Origin: Algoriphagus sanaruensis
GTDB lineage: Bacteria > Bacteroidota > Bacteroidia > Cytophagales > Cyclobacteriaceae
Direction: 5' to 3'
NCBI RefSeq assembly: GCF_001593605.1
Contig: NZ_CP012836.1
Coordinates: 2,980,501 to 3,044,500 of the forward strand
DNA length: 64,000 nucleotides
Part shown: positions 14,869 through 54,088 of the stretch, piece by piece
Position numbering within the stretch: the stretch's first letter is position 1
How the letters are laid out: every line of letters starts with the position of its first letter
Notes under the pieces: generated by a model
The model's database searches: none
Told to the model about the DNA's origin: nothing
Seen by the model: only the letters and a program-made list of their open reading frames with translations
Program-made: the position numbers and the translations under genes

Positions 14869-16650
14869 TTAAAGTGTTGGAAGCAATACTCCGTCAATCA
14901 CGTGAACTACCCCATTCTCAATAGCAACGTCAGCGGCAACAACATTAAAGGTGTTTCCGGCCTTATCTGTCACTGTCACAGAATTACCATTTCTGGTTAC
15001 GGTCAACATTTCACCTGAGAGTGTTGGCACCAGCTGGGATCCCTGAGCCAAATCAAATGAGAACGCAGTGGCTGGAACTACATGAAAGCCTAAAACTTTA
15101 ACAACGGCCTCAGCTCCTAAAGTGGAAATCAATTCTTGCAATGAACCCAAATTGAGCGCTGCCAATAAATCTGCGAATGCCTGGTTGGTTGGTGCAAAAA
15201 CAGTCATTGATTCTTGGTCCAAAAGCGTTTGCCCCAATCCAGCAGCTGTAACTGCATCTAACAAAATACTCAAATTGGCAGCTTGCGCCGCTTCAACGAC
15301 ATTAGGAAGAGTGAGTTCGGGCAATAAAACACCATCAATCACATGAACTACCCCATTTTCAATGGCCACATCAGCAGCAATTACATTGATTGTATTTCCG
15401 GTAGCATCAGTTACTGTCACACCCGAAGAGTTCTTCGTCACAGTTAGATTTTGACCTGCCAAAGTGGTAAACGTATTGGTTGCAGCTAAATCAGATGAGA
15501 AAGCTACTGCTGGCACAACATGGAAACCTAAAACTGTTTGAAGGTTTTCAATTCCACCAATCTTGGTAACCAATTGACTAAGATTACTTGCACCGAATGC
15601 TTCTAGAGCTGCTCCAAAAGCATCATTGGTAGGAGCAAATACTGTAATCGCATCTGCATTTACTAAGGCATTGCCCAATCCTGCTGCGGTAACTGCATCA
15701 AGAAGCACGCTTAGTCCGGCACCTTGAGCTGCTTCCACAACAGTTGGCAACTCTAAATCAGGCAACATCACTCCATTCAAAACATGTACAACTCCATTGG
15801 AAATTTCAATATCTGCAGCTACTACTTGAGCCACTCTTCCCAATTGATCTCTAACGGAAACAGTATTGCCTGATTTTTCTACGAAAATTTCCTGACCTGC
15901 CAAAGTCATAAATGTATTACTGGCTTGGAGACTTCCAGAAAGCGCAACCGCAGGAACTACATGATATCCTAAGACTTTTTCCAAATTAGATACTCCTCCA
16001 ATCTTCACTACCAATTCATCCAAAGAAGCAGCACCAAAAACTTCTAAAGCCGCAGCAAAGGCTTCATTAGACGGTGCAAAAACAGTAATTGCTTGAGCAG
16101 AAAGTAAATCTTCGGGCAAACCATCCACTGCAGAAACTGCTGATAAAAGAGTAGTCAATCCATTCTCGGTAGCTACCTCTACAAGAGTTGGTTTGGGTAG
16201 ATCCACAGCTGGTAAAAGCACGCGATCGATGACATGCACCACCCCATTTTCTATTTGTACATCAGCTTGAATCACCCGTGCCACATTTCCAGCAGCGTCT
16301 GTTACAGTTACAATTCCAGGATTAGAAGTTACCCGCAGGGATTGTCCGGCAAGGGTTGTAAAAACATTATCCTGATTGAGGTTTCTTGAAAAGGCTACTG
16401 CTGGTACAACATGAAATCCGAGAACAGTTTGCAAATTTTCAGCCCCTCCTAGCTTGGCTACTAAATCATTTAGATCAGATGCGCCGAACGCTTGAAGAGC
16501 ATTTGCAAATGCTTCATTGGACGGAGCAAAAACAGTAATTGCATCTTGGTCTTGCAAAGCAGCCTCAAGTCCTGGGATAGCTCGAACCGCAGATACAAGG
16601 GTAGTTAAACCTGCCTCTTCGGCTGCTTGAATCAACGTAGGATAAGGAAT
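14869..16650 (-). repeat. Four tandem ~440-base coding repeats (FAS1 modules)
   Basis: The same phrases recur at about 440-450-base intervals, for example the segment encoding the VVHVIDGVLLP-type motif near 14890, 15340, 15790 and 16230. They are diverged, not identical, copies, and represent duplication of a protein domain. Confidence 0.8.
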
Positions 16651-47218: not shown

Positions 47219-47548
47219 GTGGAAGATCATCGAGGGTACGATAGAGAGGAGATATTCTCTAAAAAAGTAAAAGCAGGTAAACGGACTTATTTTTTTGACA
47301 TCAAATCCACCAGAGGAAACGATTACTACCTGACTATTACAGAAAGTAAAAGAAGAATGAATGGAGATAACTTCTCCTATGAAAAGCACAAAATATTTCT
47401 TTACAAAGAAGACTTCTTCAAATTCGTACAGGCTCTAAATGAGGCTGTAGACCATATTAAAAATGATTTAATGCCTGAAGTTGATTTTCAGCAATTTGAA
47501 AATGAAGATTCAGAAAATGAATTAAATGACGAGTTACGCTGGGAATAA
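47219..47548 (+). CDS. PUR-family (DUF3276) nucleic-acid-binding protein
   Basis: 109 residues. The conserved core KVKAGKRTYFFDIKSTRGND (about 16-35) and the ...KHKIFLYKEDFFKF... segment define the bacterial PUR-alpha family. A crystal structure of a Bacteroidota homologue shows a PUR fold binding single-stranded nucleic acid; its role is not known. Start is GTG (47219-47221), as no ATG precedes the domain. Acidic C-terminal tail. Monocistronic between two terminators. Confidence 0.88.
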   Translation: MEDHRGYDREEIFSKKVKAGKRTYFFDIKSTRGNDYYLTITESKRRMNGDNFSYEKHKIFLYKEDFFKFVQALNEAVDHIKNDLMPEVDFQQFENEDSENELNDELRWE

Positions 47549-47622: not shown

Positions 47623-48717
47623 ATGCAGCGGTTCTTTGTTTATCTGGCTCTTTTTTTAGTTGTGTTTCTGGCTATAGGATGGTATTTCTCAAATATCGCC
47701 CTGTATTTTGTCATTTCGTTGATTTTGGCAGCATTACTTCGACCTCTTACCAATCGAATCAACGAATTTCACCTTGTAGGTCAACATACTCCCCGCTGGA
47801 TAGCTATCCTCCTCTCCTATGCAGCAATTATTCTTTTAACCTTCAGTTTGGGGCTTCTTTTCTTCCCCTTAATAAAAGAACAAATATCCGTTTTGAGTCA
47901 ATTGAATGTAGAGACGATATACTATCAGATCCAGCAGCCTGTGACTCAGTTCGAGAATTTTTTATTGAAGTTTCAGCTCATCGACCAAAAACCAGGTGAG
48001 TTGTTTTCCCAGTTACAAAACTCCGTCCTTGAAGCGATAAAGAGATTTGATGTAGGAGGATTTATCAGCGGGATTATTGGTTTAACAGGAAGTGTTTTGG
48101 TAGGAACTTTGGCAGTTGCATTTATTACTTTTTTTCTACTGCTCGAAAATGGACTCCTACGGAGAAATATTTTAAACCTTATTCCAAATTCATACTTCGA
48201 ACTGTCAGTTGCCACATTTACTAAAGTCGAAAAACTTTTATCCAATTACTTGTCCGGATTGCTAATTCAGGTTTTAGCTATTTTTTCTATGGCAGCTTTA
48301 GGTTTATCAATAGTCCAAGTTCCTTATGCCTTGACTATTGCGCTTTTTGCAGCAATTGCCAATTTGATCCCATATGCTGGACCAATTTTAGGTACCGTAT
48401 TTGGAATCATCGTGGGCATTTCAACAGGAACATTTGCCAGCGATCAAGAATACACCTACTTCTTGGTTAAAGTACTTTCAGTTTTTGCTGCCGTCCAATT
48501 GACGGACAATGTCCTGCTCCAGCCGATGATTTTCTCCAAATCAGTAAAAGCACATCCCCTTGAAATATTTGTTATTATCTTTGCCGGTGCAAAAATCGCC
48601 GGCATTGTGGGGATGATTTTTGCTATTCCTGTTTACACCATTTTCCGTGTTTTGATAATGGAGTTTTACAAGGGATACAAGTCTTATCGAATCTTTAAAA
48701 TTAAAGCAACAAATTAA
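47623..48717 (+). CDS. AI-2E family transporter (second of two)
   Basis: 364-residue polytopic inner-membrane protein, PF01594 type, with about eight helices. Conserved IPYAGPILGTVFG (about 248-260) and QLTDNVLLQPMIFSKSVKAHP (later half) correspond to IPYVGP and the QLLEGNFLTP segment in the paralogue at 33646. Substrate is unknown. Its stop overlaps the ychF start by one base (TAATG). Confidence 0.92.
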   Translation: MQRFFVYLALFLVVFLAIGWYFSNIALYFVISLILAALLRPLTNRINEFHLVGQHTPRWIAILLSYAAIILLTFSLGLLFFPLIKEQISVLSQLNVETIYYQIQQPVTQFENFLLKFQLIDQKPGELFSQLQNSVLEAIKRFDVGGFISGIIGLTGSVLVGTLAVAFITFFLLLENGLLRRNILNLIPNSYFELSVATFTKVEKLLSNYLSGLLIQVLAIFSMAALGLSIVQVPYALTIALFAAIANLIPYAGPILGTVFGIIVGISTGTFASDQEYTYFLVKVLSVFAAVQLTDNVLLQPMIFSKSVKAHPLEIFVIIFAGAKIAGIVGMIFAIPVYTIFRVLIMEFYKGYKSYRIFKIKATN

Positions 48718-49814
48718 TGGCATTACAATGTGGCATTGTGGGTCTTCCAAACGTTGGGAAATCCACATTGTTTAATGCGCTTTCTAGCGCAAAAGCAGAG
48801 GCAGCAAACTTTCCATTTTGTACGATTGAACCTAATGTCGGTGTGGTTTCCGTCCCTGATAAACGCCTTCAAATCCTAGAGGGATTGGTTAATCCACAGC
48901 GAGTTGTACCTACGATTATTGAATTTGTAGATATTGCAGGCCTCGTTAAAGGAGCTTCAAAAGGTGAAGGACTGGGAAATAAATTCTTAGCCAATATTCG
49001 TGAAGTGGATGCCATAATCCATGTAATCAGATGCTTTGATGACAATAATATCGTACACGTGGCGGGTGGTGTTGATCCAATTTTTGACAAAGAAGTAATT
49101 GACACCGAGCTTCAACTCAAGGACTTAGAATCGATTGATAAAAAAATCTCCAGAATCGAGAAAATTGCGAAATCTGGAGATGCAAAGGCCAAGCGTGAAC
49201 TGGAAGTTCTTAACCAATTCAAAACTGGTCTTCAATCAGGATTAAATGCACGAGCTATTGAGGTTGACAAAGAAGATTTGGAAGCAGTACGAGACCTACA
49301 TCTACTCACCATCAAGCCCGTACTTTATGTAGCAAACGTAGATGAAAGTAGCATACTTACCGGAAATCAATACGTAGACCAACTTAAAGAAAAAGTAAAG
49401 GAGGAAAACGCAGAGGTGATCGTACTATGTGCAGCCATCGAATCTCAAATTGCTGAATTTGAAGATGCTGATGAAAAGGCAATGTTCCTGGGTGAATATG
49501 GCTTGGATGAAAGCGGACTAAACAAGCTGATTTCAGGTGCCTATTCTTTGCTTAACCTCATCACCTATTTCACCGCCGGAGTCCAAGAAGTACGTGCGTG
49601 GACTATTCGCAGAGGATGGAAAGCTCCTCAAGCAGCAGGCGTAATCCATACTGATTTTGAACGTGGATTTATCAAGGCAGAGGTAATTAAGATCAGTGAT
49701 TATCAAAACTTCAAAACTGAGGCCGGCTGTAGAGAAAATGGAAAAATTGCAATTGAAGGGAAAGAATATGTCGTGCAAGACGGCGATATCATGCATTTCC
49801 GATTCAATGTTTGA
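48717..49814 (+). CDS. ychF: Redox-regulated ATPase YchF (Obg-like)
   Basis: 365 residues, standard length. P-loop GLPNVGKST (8-16), DIAGLVKGAS (about 72-81) and the TGS-domain at the end (FYTAGVQEVRAW-like, FERGFIKAEVI). YchF prefers ATP over GTP and binds ribosomes. The specificity G4 motif is replaced (VANVDES), as usual for YchF. It begins at the stop of the AI-2E gene. Confidence 0.97.
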   Translation: MALQCGIVGLPNVGKSTLFNALSSAKAEAANFPFCTIEPNVGVVSVPDKRLQILEGLVNPQRVVPTIIEFVDIAGLVKGASKGEGLGNKFLANIREVDAIIHVIRCFDDNNIVHVAGGVDPIFDKEVIDTELQLKDLESIDKKISRIEKIAKSGDAKAKRELEVLNQFKTGLQSGLNARAIEVDKEDLEAVRDLHLLTIKPVLYVANVDESSILTGNQYVDQLKEKVKEENAEVIVLCAAIESQIAEFEDADEKAMFLGEYGLDESGLNKLISGAYSLLNLITYFTAGVQEVRAWTIRRGWKAPQAAGVIHTDFERGFIKAEVIKISDYQNFKTEAGCRENGKIAIEGKEYVVQDGDIMHFRFNV

Positions 49815-49904
49815 TAATTATTAAATTTTCTTTGTAGTTTTAAAGCTTATTCACCCAAAAAGCATTTTATACAAAAGATTGTCTCATTTTATTTTTAATT
49901 CACC

Positions 49905-50795
49905 GTGAGAGTTAGACTAATATTTTCACTAAAAAACAAAGGCTCTTATTTGCCTTTCCACCATCAGTACCTGTTGGCACAATTCTTAAAAGGTCTTATT
50001 GTCAAAGGAGGGCGTGAGGAGTTTTACAATTACAATTTCTTCAATTTCTCTGGTTTGAAAGGCCAGACGAAAGTGAGCAGAAGCGGATTGCACTATTATT
50101 CGAGTTTGGTAACCTTGGTTCTTTCATCTCACGATGAAGATTTCATGGATTATTTACTTGAACAAGTGTTTGCCACTCCTAAAATTGAATTGGGAAATCT
50201 AATCTTGTCTCCAGAATATACTGAACTGGAAACAGAGCCTGAGTTAGAAACTGCAAACAAATTTGTTTGTATTTCACCATTGGTATTGATCACCCCAGCA
50301 TTCAATGAAGAGATTGGAAAACGATTCATTAGCCCGGATAGTGATGAATTCTCCGATTTATTATATGAATCTACCCTGACCCGTATGGAGCGTTCTGGTT
50401 GGTATACCCCCGAGCAACTAGAATCGTTCTACAAATTCCAGGTAGTTCCTGATATGGTTTATGTCAACAAGCTTAAAGAACAGCAAAAGAAATTTGCTCG
50501 TATTTATGCGGTTTATGACATGGATGTGAAATATGAAGTAAGAGGTTATACGCTTCCCTTCACCTTATATGCCGCACCTGAAGTACAAGACTTTGTTTTC
50601 AAGTGTGGACTTGGTGCATTCACCCATAAAGGATTTGGAATGCTAGATCTAGCGAACCATCCGTCTGGAAATCGTACTACAACTTATAAATTCAAAAGAG
50701 AAGGATTTATTCCTTACAAGCCTACCGATAGAGTTAGAGAAAATGTAGCTCCAGCCGAAGAGGATGAACAGGATGAAAATTCAATGGAATTTTAA
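49905..50795 (+). CDS. cas6: Solitary Cas6-like endoribonuclease
   Basis: 296 residues. The N-terminal RAMP-like strand MRVRLIFSLKN, then LPFHHQYLLAQFLKG (16-30; H19/H20 are possible catalytic positions) and NYNFFNFSGLKG (41-52) match Cas6 proteins. SPLVLITP at 124-131 is typical of the fold, and the C-terminal Gly-rich loop GLGAFTHKGFGML (235-247) is the Cas6 hallmark. An acidic tail (284-296) is unusual. Start is GTG at 49905. Cas6 cuts CRISPR precursor RNA, but there is no repeat array or other cas gene in 64 kb. It follows ychF by 90 bases and ends at a terminator. Confidence 0.85.
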   Translation: MRVRLIFSLKNKGSYLPFHHQYLLAQFLKGLIVKGGREEFYNYNFFNFSGLKGQTKVSRSGLHYYSSLVTLVLSSHDEDFMDYLLEQVFATPKIELGNLILSPEYTELETEPELETANKFVCISPLVLITPAFNEEIGKRFISPDSDEFSDLLYESTLTRMERSGWYTPEQLESFYKFQVVPDMVYVNKLKEQQKKFARIYAVYDMDVKYEVRGYTLPFTLYAAPEVQDFVFKCGLGAFTHKGFGMLDLANHPSGNRTTTYKFKREGFIPYKPTDRVRENVAPAEEDEQDENSMEF

Positions 50796-50803
50796 AAAAC
50801 TAA

Positions 50804-50832
50804 CCCCCGACCAAAAATCGGGGGTTTCTTTT
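50804..50832. terminator. Terminator between cas6 and the plug-protein gene
   Basis: Perfect 7-bp GC-rich stem CCCCCGA / TCGGGGG, 7-base loop, T-rich on the right and A-rich on the left. It serves the cas6-like gene and possibly the converging minus-strand gene. Confidence 0.85.
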
Positions 50833-50879: not shown

Positions 50880-52148
50880 TTAAAATCTTCTCTTGTTAGG
50901 TTGGATGTAAGCATACCCAGCCAACTGATCATATCGAGAGCCCAGTTGCCTAAAGTACACCAATACCTCATATTCATTTTCAGTTTGAAAATGACTTCCC
51001 TCGATCAGTGATGAATCCATTCCCTCGGGGGAGCTTAAAGCAAACTGAAAATCATACCATCCTTGCTTTAACAAAAGCTCAGTGAAATAAACCTTCCGAT
51101 TGGAGTCCCATTGCATTTTTGATGTTCCATTTTTCCCCCAGTTGGTCAGTGCTCCCAATACATAAATATCCTGCCCTGGAGATTCATTCAAATAAATGGA
51201 TGTCAATACATATTCACTTTCCAATTCGGGATTTCCCCCAGGTCGATCATTAGTTGCTACTACATATTGTCCATTGATATCCAAATATTGAGAGTACGGT
51301 TCGACAGATCGTGGCTGACTCAATAAGGATTGAGCATAAACAGCCGTTTCCTCTAGTTTAACTGAGCCAATATTTACTCCTGTTGCTCTGATAAATCTCA
51401 AATCAAAGAATCTAAATTCATTTCCTGCCACGAATGTATTTTCGCCATCAAATGACTCATACCTCAAAAGTTTCGAACCTGCATTTACAAAAGTGGGCTT
51501 TTGAAGTCTTTTGAAATTATCCCAGCGTTGATTCTGTCTGATGACTACTTGGATTTGAGTGGTGGGATCAATAACCTCTGTTTGGGAATAATTGACGCTT
51601 ACATTCAGTTGCTGGAGTTTGGACCTATTTTCAACATCAGCCGGAGGAACTAAACCTGCACCAACGGTAAATAATTCCTCAGCCACCATAAATCGCTTCG
51701 TGAAAAGCACCTGATTTTCATCGCGATTTCGATACACTTTAATGATATAATTTCCTGACTTAGTGACAGATGGAATCGTGAGTTCATAATGAACATAGGG
51801 AATTCGGGTATTGACAGAATAGTTATAATCTTCTACGGTAAACTGATTAAACGTACTCAAAAAATCCGTGTCCTTCAATCCTGACTTGGTCCAATCAGCG
51901 TTACAATGAATCAATTTTGCGGTATACAATTCAGGATCATACGCTAAATCATCAAATACTAAAGACAATCTCCTTGAGTCTTGCAAGCCTACGACAGGTG
52001 AGTTGATCATGGATGAAACTTGACCTCCCTGAGGAAACAAACGAACCGAAAAAATATGATCCACAAATACTCGGTCCTCCAGCACTTGCGCCAGAGTACT
52101 CGAGATAAATCCAAATGAAAAGAGAATAACAATAAAGATTTGCTTCAT
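50880..52148 (-). CDS. Type IX secretion system plug-family protein (DUF5103)
   Basis: 422 residues. Signal peptide about 1-20 (SSTLAQ). The whole-length pattern (HIFSVRLFPQGGQ, LIHCNADWTKSGL, then TLTIPSV..SGNYIIKVYR-like) matches the DUF5103/T9SS plug family. In Flavobacterium the Plug protein seals the periplasmic side of the SprA translocon when PorV is absent. ATG at 52148 is used for the signal peptide; the frame continues into the ABC-F gene. It begins 20 bases after the ABC-F stop, so they share an operon. Role in T9SS is inferred from family. Confidence 0.85.
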   Translation of the reverse strand: MKQIFIVILFSFGFISSTLAQVLEDRVFVDHIFSVRLFPQGGQVSSMINSPVVGLQDSRRLSLVFDDLAYDPELYTAKLIHCNADWTKSGLKDTDFLSTFNQFTVEDYNYSVNTRIPYVHYELTIPSVTKSGNYIIKVYRNRDENQVLFTKRFMVAEELFTVGAGLVPPADVENRSKLQQLNVSVNYSQTEVIDPTTQIQVVIRQNQRWDNFKRLQKPTFVNAGSKLLRYESFDGENTFVAGNEFRFFDLRFIRATGVNIGSVKLEETAVYAQSLLSQPRSVEPYSQYLDINGQYVVATNDRPGGNPELESEYVLTSIYLNESPGQDIYVLGALTNWGKNGTSKMQWDSNRKVYFTELLLKQGWYDFQFALSSPEGMDSSLIEGSHFQTENEYEVLVYFRQLGSRYDQLAGYAYIQPNKRRF

Positions 52149-52168
52149 TTCCAAAAGATAAACACCTG

Positions 52169-54088
52169 CTAGATTAATTCCTGAAGTTTTGAAATTTCCT
52201 CTACCAAATTTTCCCATTTCGCATTCGCCTCATAGAGGTTAGACTGAATGGTCTGGTAGGATTCTTGAATTTTGTTGGCTTTTGATTCGTCAGAATATAA
52301 TTCAGGATCAGCCATTTTTTCCTCCGTCTCTGCTTTTAGAATTTCGAGAGATTCGATTTCATGCTCGATTTTCTGAAGTTGCTCCTCGAGTTTCTTTAAA
52401 TCCCGCTTTGCTTGTTGGGCCTCTGGAGAGTTGGTAGAATTAGCAGCAGCTTCCTTTGGTTTCTTTTTATCCTCTTGCATCAGAGGAGCTTGAACTTGCT
52501 GGCTTCTCCAAAACTCATATTCATCGTAGGTACCTGGATATTCCTTGATTTGTTGGTCTTCGATGTACCAAATTTTATTGGCTACTCCTTTGATGAAGTG
52601 TCGATCGTGAGAGACAGTAATAAAAGTACCTTCATATTGTTGTAAAGCTTGAATCAAAATATTCACCGATTGGAAATCCAAATGGTTGGTAGGTTCATCC
52701 AAAAGCAAAAAATTAGCCTCAGAAATCAAGGTTTTAGCCAAGGCTACCCGGGATTTTTCCCCACCTGAAAGCACCTTAATTTTTTTGAAAACATCGTCAT
52801 TGGTAAACAAAAAGCAGCCTAAGACATTTCGTAGTTCCGTTTCAGATTTAGCACTTCCTGCTTGCGCAAGTTCCTGTAGAATTTCATTATCCAGAGTCAA
52901 AGCCTCTAGCTGATGCTGGGCAAAAAACGATTTAATGACATTATGGCCTTCTGTCCGGCTACCCTCGATTTTTTCTGAGCCATCAATAATCCTCAAAAGG
53001 GTAGATTTTCCTTTTCCATTGGCACCTATCAGAGCAATCTTATCGCCTCTTTCGATTCTCGCTGTACTGTTTTTCAAAATAACTAAGTCTCCATAAGCCT
53101 TGGAAACATGGTCTAAAACCACCACATCTCTCCCCGACTTTTGAGAAAACTTAAATTTAAAATTGACAAAAGCCTCGTCGTTAACTACCTCATGTACACG
53201 ATCCATTCGTTCCAAAGCCTTAATTCTGGATTGAACCTGATTGGACTTGGTCGCTTTTGCCCTAAACCGTTCGATAAATCGCTCGGTTTGTTTAATCATC
53301 TGCTGCTGATTTTCATAGGCATTTTGCTGCAACTCCATTCGCAACTTTTTTTCCTCCTTGTAAAAAGAATAATTACCTGGATAGGCAGTCAAGGTTTCAT
53401 TGGCTACCTCCACTGTGGTATTGATGCAATTATCCAAAAAAGTCTGATCGTGGGAAACGACAATAACAGCACCCTCATAGTTTTTGAGGTAGTTTTCCAC
53501 CCATTGAATAGAAGGTAAATCCAAGTGGTTGGTAGGTTCGTCCAGCATCAACAGACTTGGCTTTTCTAAAAGCAATTTGGCGAGCATCACTCGCATTCTC
53601 CATCCACCTGAAAACTGACGAAGGGGCTTTTGCAAATCAGAGGTTTGAAACCCAATTCCCTCCAATACCTCCTCTGCTTTGGCCTTGATGGTATAGCCCT
53701 CATTGCTTTCAAATCGATCCTGAAGTTGGGCGAGCCGATTGATAATCTCATCGGAATAATCGGTTTCCATTTGTTTGAGAATCTTATCGATCTCATCCTG
53801 AAGTGCTAAGGTTTCCTTAAATGCAGCCAAGGCTACATTGAGGATGCTATCATCCGATTGATAGGAAAGCAGGTCTTGATTTAAAAAACCGATGGTACAA
53901 TCTTTTGCTTTTTGAACTTCACCCGTTGTGGCTTGGTAATCTCCATTGATGATTTTTAGCAAGGTAGATTTACCGGTTCCATTTTGGCCGACAAGTCCAA
54001 TTTTATCTTTTGGCTTGATATGTAAGTTGGCATTTTCGTATAAGGCCCGTCCGCCTATGAAATAGGATAAATTGTTAATCGATAACAT
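52169..54088 (-). CDS. ABC-F family ATPase
   Basis: 639 residues. Two nucleotide-binding domains: Walker A GQNGTGKS (34-41) and GANGKGKS (about 356-363), ABC signatures FSGGWRMR and LSGGEKSR, and Walker B LLMLDEPTNHLD / FLLLDEPTNHLD. A linker of about 80 residues lies between the domains (P-site tRNA interaction motif region), and a C-terminal coiled coil from about 560. ABC-F proteins act on the ribosome; none is a transporter. ATG at 54088 is chosen since it starts at MLSINNLSYF; an upstream ATG at 54121 adds 11 residues. Confidence 0.95.
   Translation of the reverse strand: MLSINNLSYFIGGRALYENANLHIKPKDKIGLVGQNGTGKSTLLKIINGDYQATTGEVQKAKDCTIGFLNQDLLSYQSDDSILNVALAAFKETLALQDEIDKILKQMETDYSDEIINRLAQLQDRFESNEGYTIKAKAEEVLEGIGFQTSDLQKPLRQFSGGWRMRVMLAKLLLEKPSLLMLDEPTNHLDLPSIQWVENYLKNYEGAVIVVSHDQTFLDNCINTTVEVANETLTAYPGNYSFYKEEKKLRMELQQNAYENQQQMIKQTERFIERFRAKATKSNQVQSRIKALERMDRVHEVVNDEAFVNFKFKFSQKSGRDVVVLDHVSKAYGDLVILKNSTARIERGDKIALIGANGKGKSTLLRIIDGSEKIEGSRTEGHNVIKSFFAQHQLEALTLDNEILQELAQAGSAKSETELRNVLGCFLFTNDDVFKKIKVLSGGEKSRVALAKTLISEANFLLLDEPTNHLDFQSVNILIQALQQYEGTFITVSHDRHFIKGVANKIWYIEDQQIKEYPGTYDEYEFWRSQQVQAPLMQEDKKKPKEAAANSTNSPEAQQAKRDLKKLEEQLQKIEHEIESLEILKAETEEKMADPELYSDESKANKIQESYQTIQSNLYEANAKWENLVEEISKLQELI

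Follow-up and report, generated by a model that had tools for sequence, protein, structure and literature searches.

The cas6L locus

The DNA analyzed here, referred to as the window, is a 64-kb stretch (64,000 nucleotides [nt]) of the Algoriphagus sanaruensis genome (NCBI RefSeq assembly GCF_001593605.1, contig NZ_CP012836.1, positions 2,980,501 to 3,044,500), and the analysis concerns one gene within it, cas6L (49905..50795, + strand). By open reading frame (ORF) call, profile matches, and predicted structure, cas6L encodes a Cas6-fold protein of 296 amino acids (aa). We consider it quite probable that cas6L is a Cas6-derived gene of the housekeeping type, whose product in all likelihood recognizes a particular short RNA of the cell, as a regulator or as a slow endoribonuclease.

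Directly upstream lies ychF (48717..49814, + strand), a conserved gene for a YchF/Ola1-type P-loop NTPase, and downstream a gene for a type IX secretion system (T9SS) plug protein (50880..52217, − strand). The DUF3276 gene (47219..47548, + strand), which we take to be PUR-like, belongs to the same conserved block. The plug gene was assigned by Pfam, and ychF and DUF3276 by Pfam and locus comparison. With Pfam, the neighbours of cas6L in the window were a 4Fe-4S ferredoxin, DUF3276, an AI-2E transporter, YchF, the T9SS plug, and an ABC-F-type protein, which confirmed the ordinary housekeeping surroundings (ychF, ABC-F, T9SS plug) described in an earlier reading of the letters and translations (the sequence-only reading). 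That reading had also given the ORF a GTG start, which was borne out, and a terminator of its own. An intrinsic-terminator-like hairpin was indeed found between the convergent cas6L and plug genes (50802..50826); as it scored as a terminator on either strand, it may be common to the two.

Cas6 family membership and candidate active site

The cas6L protein was matched by Pfam Cas_Cas6_C (1e-20), NCBIfam TIGR01877 (69.6 bits, cut-off 58.65), and the PADLOC Cas6b model (4.2e-27). Profiles, predicted structure, fold search, and alignment together indicated a tandem repeat-associated mysterious protein (RAMP) fold, which is RNA recognition motif (RRM)-like, with a Gly-rich loop made up of G235, G237, G243, and G245, the loop that the sequence-only reading had described as kept. 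The acidic tail that it had noted is there as well (10 D/E vs 6 K/R in residues 258–296). Residues 275–296 have a predicted local distance difference test (pLDDT) score below 50 in the predicted structure, and the tail is variable, the whole protein measuring 244–296 aa in 14 other orthologues.

In PfuCas6, catalysis is attributed to Tyr31, His46, and Lys52 (PMC3652601). The segment bearing the catalytic His (H46) was sought with the pattern LHxxG plus Y, F, L, or W as the next residue in 371 distinct members of the cas6L family (384 sequences, from which 8 duplicates and 5 shorter than 230 residues were removed) and was present in none; in the alignment it is deleted, or replaced in family f41 (taxonomic families are given by f numbers, f1 being that of A. 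sanaruensis). The segment was present in 15/22 canonical Cas6 proteins (one a fragment). Other positions hardly vary in the cas6L family: H20 was found in 366/366 members, S49 and K52 in 370/370 each, R199 in 370/371, and D151, D183, Y186, K195, and Y201 in 371/371 each. S49 is common to 17/21 canonical Cas6 proteins, and the residues specific to the family are H20, K52, D151, Y186, K195, R199, and Y201. Position 20 is Tyr in 20/21 canonical Cas6, and only a minority of these carry K52 (3/21), Y186 (3/21), K195 (6/21), or R199 (5/21). H20 lies in a helix predicted for residues 20–35. The comparison with the catalytic His, Tyr, and Lys of known Cas6 proteins, which the sequence-only reading had called for, gave a divided answer: the Pfu-type His segment is missing, while His, Tyr, and Lys at other positions are invariant.

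Active sites of Cas6 proteins are placed between alpha1 and the Gly-rich loop, with a contribution of the second RAMP hairpin in some, and catalytic residues differ between subfamilies, according to PMC3727216. A catalytic His is not universal, as some Cas6 proteins are active without one (PMC3652601). Because active-site residues vary in this way among subfamilies, loss of the classic His lowers the probability of RNase activity but does not exclude it.

CRISPR and cas genes

No array resembling clustered regularly interspaced short palindromic repeats (CRISPR) was seen within the window, nor were there Rfam matches at gathering score, and the statement that cas6L has neither a cas neighbour nor a repeat array held for the 64 kb. 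The genome itself (3.88 Mb, one contig) has a single Cas6 place and no second Cas6. Profile searches of it gave no match to Cas1, Cas9, or Cmr2 at E ≤ 0.001, the Cas9 search having a weak control in which zero control genomes exceeded the cut-off. The Cas3 profile gave nine matches there, none above its cut-off, and as this profile also matches all 14 non-CRISPR control genomes, these were taken as no sign of Cas3. cas6L is encoded neither with cas genes, as judged over its own genome, nor with a CRISPR array, as judged over the window.

Cas1 was present in 59/148 genomes of the same family, namely in 54/128 with cas6L vs 5/20 without it (Fisher p 0.22); the presence of cas6L does not follow Cas1. 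For its cas-gene part, the expectation that orthologues would occur in genomes free of CRISPR agrees with the 74/128 cas6L-bearing genomes without Cas1 and with the A. sanaruensis genome; the other 54 have Cas1. RtcB was considered as an end-resealing partner and rejected: it was found in 49/148 genomes and is missing from the A. sanaruensis genome, which has cas6L.

Distribution, locus, and conservation

One strong cas6L relative per genome was found in 128/148 same-family genomes (identity 43–100%), and all 128 keep open frames of 262–329 aa, in agreement with the earlier claim that the gene is not a CRISPR remnant. Named close relatives include Algoriphagus, Echinicola, Litoribacter, and Cyclobacterium. 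In a class-wide profile search (395 genomes), 27 genomes scored 304–398 bits and all other matches 55 bits or less. The 27 comprised nine genomes of f1, seven of f62, six of f24, three of f41, one of f71, and one of f77, and no own-family genome was among the 20 unmatched class genomes listed by kinship (334 further genomes were unmatched). A phylum sample (395 genomes) gave strong matches only in the same nine own-family genomes. The next-best matches there, of up to 100 bits, came from outside the class (family f84), and were counted as canonical Cas6 because the LHxxG segment is kept in all six f84 proteins examined. CRISPR-like repeats were seen in 1/4 f84 regions scanned, where eight copies of a 27-nt repeat recur every 71–77 nt near the canonical Cas6 (L253:5906-6453).

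In a tree of 51 proteins, 28 orthologues fell on one side of a branch (support 100/99) and 21 canonical Cas6 proteins outside this clade, the latter being the weak matches L021–L031 and Cas6 copies from 11 regions, with one fragment dropped. Placement of the canonical groups and of 3ufc/5yi6 relative to the clade was weakly supported.

Three sets of same-family loci were compared: the best 80 of 387 loci encoding a cas6L relative (named loci, all close to the window), 40 diverse loci picked to spread over 43–67% identity to the window protein, and 6 further loci, three of which are from genomes already among the named loci (123 distinct loci in total). cas6L directly adjoins ychF, behind it and on the same strand, in 80/80, 40/40, and 6/6 loci, respectively, and the expected same place in relatives was found in all 123. 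The full order of ferredoxin, DUF3276, AI-2E, ychF, and cas6L, followed by plug and ABC-F on the opposite strand, was kept in 64/80 named loci. Outside the family, ychF precedes cas6L in 1/5 f24 loci (L043) and 3/3 f41 loci (L047–L049), and no ychF stood before cas6L in the stretches examined for three f62 loci and one f71 locus. The neighbours differ from family to family; ten were put to Pfam and none was a cas gene (Exo_endo_phos, Transgly/DUF748, sugar transferase, Kazal, ACP phosphodiesterase, gyrase-B-like, and LplA were matched).

Within the Algoriphagus group (65–80 loci per gene), cas6L was the most conserved gene of the block, with a median identity to the window of 90.6%, followed by ferredoxin (89.7), ychF (87.7), ABC-F (82.0), DUF3276 (81.7), AI-2E (70.4), and plug (59.2).

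5′ leader and start codon

The 5′ leader of cas6L (49835..49904, + strand) is conserved in the Algoriphagus group, with the blocks TTGTYTCA, TTATTTTTAA, and CCGTGAGA. It follows a −7 sequence of Bacteroidetes type (consensus TAnnTTTG) just behind the ychF stop. Over 52 Algoriphagus-group rows, the mean major-base frequency in the last 35 columns before the start was 0.88; that at fourfold sites of cas6L was far lower (0.52, 66 sites).

The start is GTG AGA in 80/80 named loci. Among 47 same-family loci it is TTG in 31, GTG in 14, and ATG in 2, with no in-frame ATG upstream in 46/47; orthologues in other families start with ATG (12/12 loci). The weak start codon was rejected as a special sign of cas6L, since the neighbouring DUF3276 gene (see above for coordinates) also keeps GTG. 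At its aligned first residue, DUF3276 has a non-ATG start, GTG in 29/29 diverse loci and GTG (65) or TTG (13) in 78 loci of the Algoriphagus group.

An autoregulatory hairpin at the start codon was also considered. RNAalifold on 25 chosen rows gave a 5-bp stem (UCUCA/UGAGA, −1.35 kcal/mol) with no compensatory change. Compared with shuffles, start-site complementarity had a mean z of −0.46 (standard error of the mean [sem] 0.21) in 20 loci of the Algoriphagus group (one in every four of the 80) and of +0.10 (sem 0.13) in 39 diverse loci, and the hairpin, possible in the Algoriphagus group, was not supported as a family-wide feature. In one group of relatives (L185, L186, L188, L189, L035, and L036), another hairpin (CCGCTC...AGCGG) was noticed by eye in the ychF–cas6L gap, behind the promoter-like sequence; it is perhaps an attenuator or the ychF terminator.

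Proposed function and alternative explanations

We propose that one copy of Cas6 ceased to serve CRISPR before the six families of the class in which it is found diverged. The stretch with the Pfu-type catalytic His would then have dropped out. A new invariant set may have been fixed, in which alpha1 opens with H20, K52 follows beta2, and K195, R199, and Y201 lie at the second RAMP hairpin. Afterwards the gene would have been passed down mainly vertically, in single copy and mostly beside ychF. The protein is pictured as holding one short cellular RNA element the Cas6 way, with a family-specific pocket. It could act on that RNA by binding, in a regulatory role, or it could cut it slowly as an endoribonuclease that needs no metal, H20 being the putative catalytic His. 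Judging from the predicted fold, RNA binding is likely, and the chance of cleavage falls a little short of even; the protein may process a cellular RNA, as suggested by the sequence-only reading. The first guess for the target, and a tentative one, would be a translation-related RNA, because the neighbouring YchF binds the small ribosomal subunit and initiation factor 3 (IF3) in Escherichia coli. In its most far-reaching form, which we regard as rather doubtful, Cas6 would have been exapted once, deep in this Bacteroidota class, into a core RNA-processing enzyme encoded beside ychF, which with a re-sited active centre (H20/K52/K195/R199/Y201) cuts or clamps a single widespread cellular RNA connected to translation.

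Several observations weigh against the proposed role of cas6L as a housekeeping-type gene for an RNA-binding protein. Two other families of the same order are represented by seven listed genomes, none of which had a match to the cas6L family, and cas6L is absent from 20/148 same-family genomes. ychF was sought in 17 of these 20 (three incomplete genomes were left out): in eight, spread over four genera, a gap of 6–134 nt separates the aligned plug and ychF ends, and the flanks abut. In seven others ychF is present and plug was not within the 1.5 kb examined; G339 and G349 are uninformative (ychF cut or missing). These absences, with abutting flanks in eight genomes, imply that the gene is dispensable in some lineages. 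Of the earlier claim of vertical keeping at a constant locus, the constant place held and the keeping did not hold in these 20 relatives. In the 40 diverse loci, moreover, cas6L was less conserved (median identity 61.7%) than ychF (74.8%), the plug being at 37.5%. The core of the window protein is acidic, with an isoelectric point (pI) of 5.6, and values of 5.4–9.1 were obtained over 15 proteins measured, so that RNA binding is not evident from charge. Finally, ychF was not found in the stretch examined for 8/12 other-family loci, and its link with cas6L may be mere inertia.

Two explanations keep cas6L within CRISPR biology. A decaying CRISPR remnant would fit the lack of an adjoining cas gene; it was rejected, as barely credible, on the constraint on the gene and its fixed locus. 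cas6L is as conserved as ychF in the Algoriphagus group, keeps open frames in its 128 strong matches, has invariant residues across the family, and stands in the same place in the 123 loci, and the identities would already indicate purifying selection. A trans-acting Cas6 that processes CRISPR RNA (crRNA) for arrays when these are present agrees with the matches to the Cas6 models of Pfam, NCBIfam, and PADLOC and with the Cas1-bearing part of the cas6L genomes (54/128). This is improbable, however, given the larger part without Cas1 and the lack of Cas1, Cas9, and Cmr2 matches in the A. sanaruensis genome, and cas6L holds one locus regardless. Furthermore, a separate canonical Cas6 was present in 11/11 regions chosen from weak second Cas6 matches, nine of which hold Cas1; this check covered those 11 regions and not all 54 Cas1 genomes.

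The other two are variants of the proposed cellular RNA-binding role and do not exclude it. In one, a branch of it with slightly less than an even chance, cleavage has been lost and cas6L is a non-catalytic RNA-binding protein like Pyrococcus Cas6nc. The closest solved relatives by profile are Cas6nc proteins (3ufc, 1.6e-18; PH0350, 1.2e-15), both are also the best fold matches of the cas6L model, tied with 5yi6, and the Pfu-type His segment is lacking throughout the family. PhCas6nc is described as an inactive homologue that binds unstructured RNA (PMC3727216). Against this stand the near-absolute H20, Y186, Y201, K52, K195, and R199 across six families, in our judgement more than binding alone usually asks, and the activity of some Cas6 proteins that have no catalytic His. 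In addition, the His on which Cas6e and Cas6f rely is located in alpha1 (PMC3652601), where H20 lies by the helix of the model. In the other, a bolder form that we rate as unlikely, cas6L and YchF would act together on ribosomes or in the initiation of translation, with cas6L binding, for instance, part of an rRNA or an mRNA. Adjacency to ychF in three families, the contacts that E. coli YchF makes with the small subunit and with IF3 (PMC8138138), and the TTG or GTG starts (45/47 same-family loci) with almost no in-frame ATG upstream speak for it. The 8/12 other-family loci without ychF, the GTG start kept by DUF3276, and the ATG starts of other-family orthologues speak against it, and ychF and cas6L need not be one transcript because of the promoter-like sequence between them.

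Relation to known Cas6 proteins

PhCas6nc and PfCas6nc of Pyrococcus (PDB 3qjj, 3ufc) have a Cas6 fold like that predicted for cas6L and gave the best profile matches and some of the best fold matches, with 20–23% identity in the fold alignment. Pyrococcus genes for non-cleaving Cas6 proteins stand outside cas loci. 3ufc differs from cas6L in having N-Y-N at positions 19–21 and in lacking K52, K195, R199, and Y201, and the tree groups it with 5yi6, apart from the cas6L clade (weak support). Non-cleaving Cas6 proteins are known from Pyrococcus (PMC3727216). Canonical Cas6/Cas6b proteins (PfuCas6 3i4h, 5yi6, and the same-family Cas6 copies) mostly have in common with cas6L the two RAMP domains, the Gly-rich loop, P17, S49, and S124-P125; unlike them, cas6L has no LHxxG catalytic segment, no cas neighbours, and one fixed chromosomal place. 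The catalytic His of Cas6e/Cas6f in alpha1 resembles the candidate H20 (PMC3652601).

No paper pairing Cas6 with Algoriphagus was found, and a CRISPR-free Cas6 in Bacteroidetes was not described in the titles and abstract openings among the literature matches listed, which cover few subscription papers and are weak evidence of absence. Nor did these matches describe a Cas6 clade that runs through a bacterial family independently of Cas1 and has invariant residues of its own and a place beside ychF. The named relatives listed are nearly all labelled "CRISPR-associated endoribonuclease Cas6"; despite this label, cas6L behaves as a housekeeping gene, present independently of Cas1. If the proposal is true, cas6L would clearly exemplify how an RNase of CRISPR can become a factor for cellular RNA, and surveys of CRISPR in these bacteria that rely on counts of cas6 genes would be misled. 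Cultured strains of Algoriphagus, Belliella, Echinicola, and Cyclobacterium offer a ready system for finding the RNA target.

Elsewhere in the window, direct repeats at 441–450 nt spacing were observed at 14885–16544, a spacing such as tandem protein domains of some 147 residues would give.
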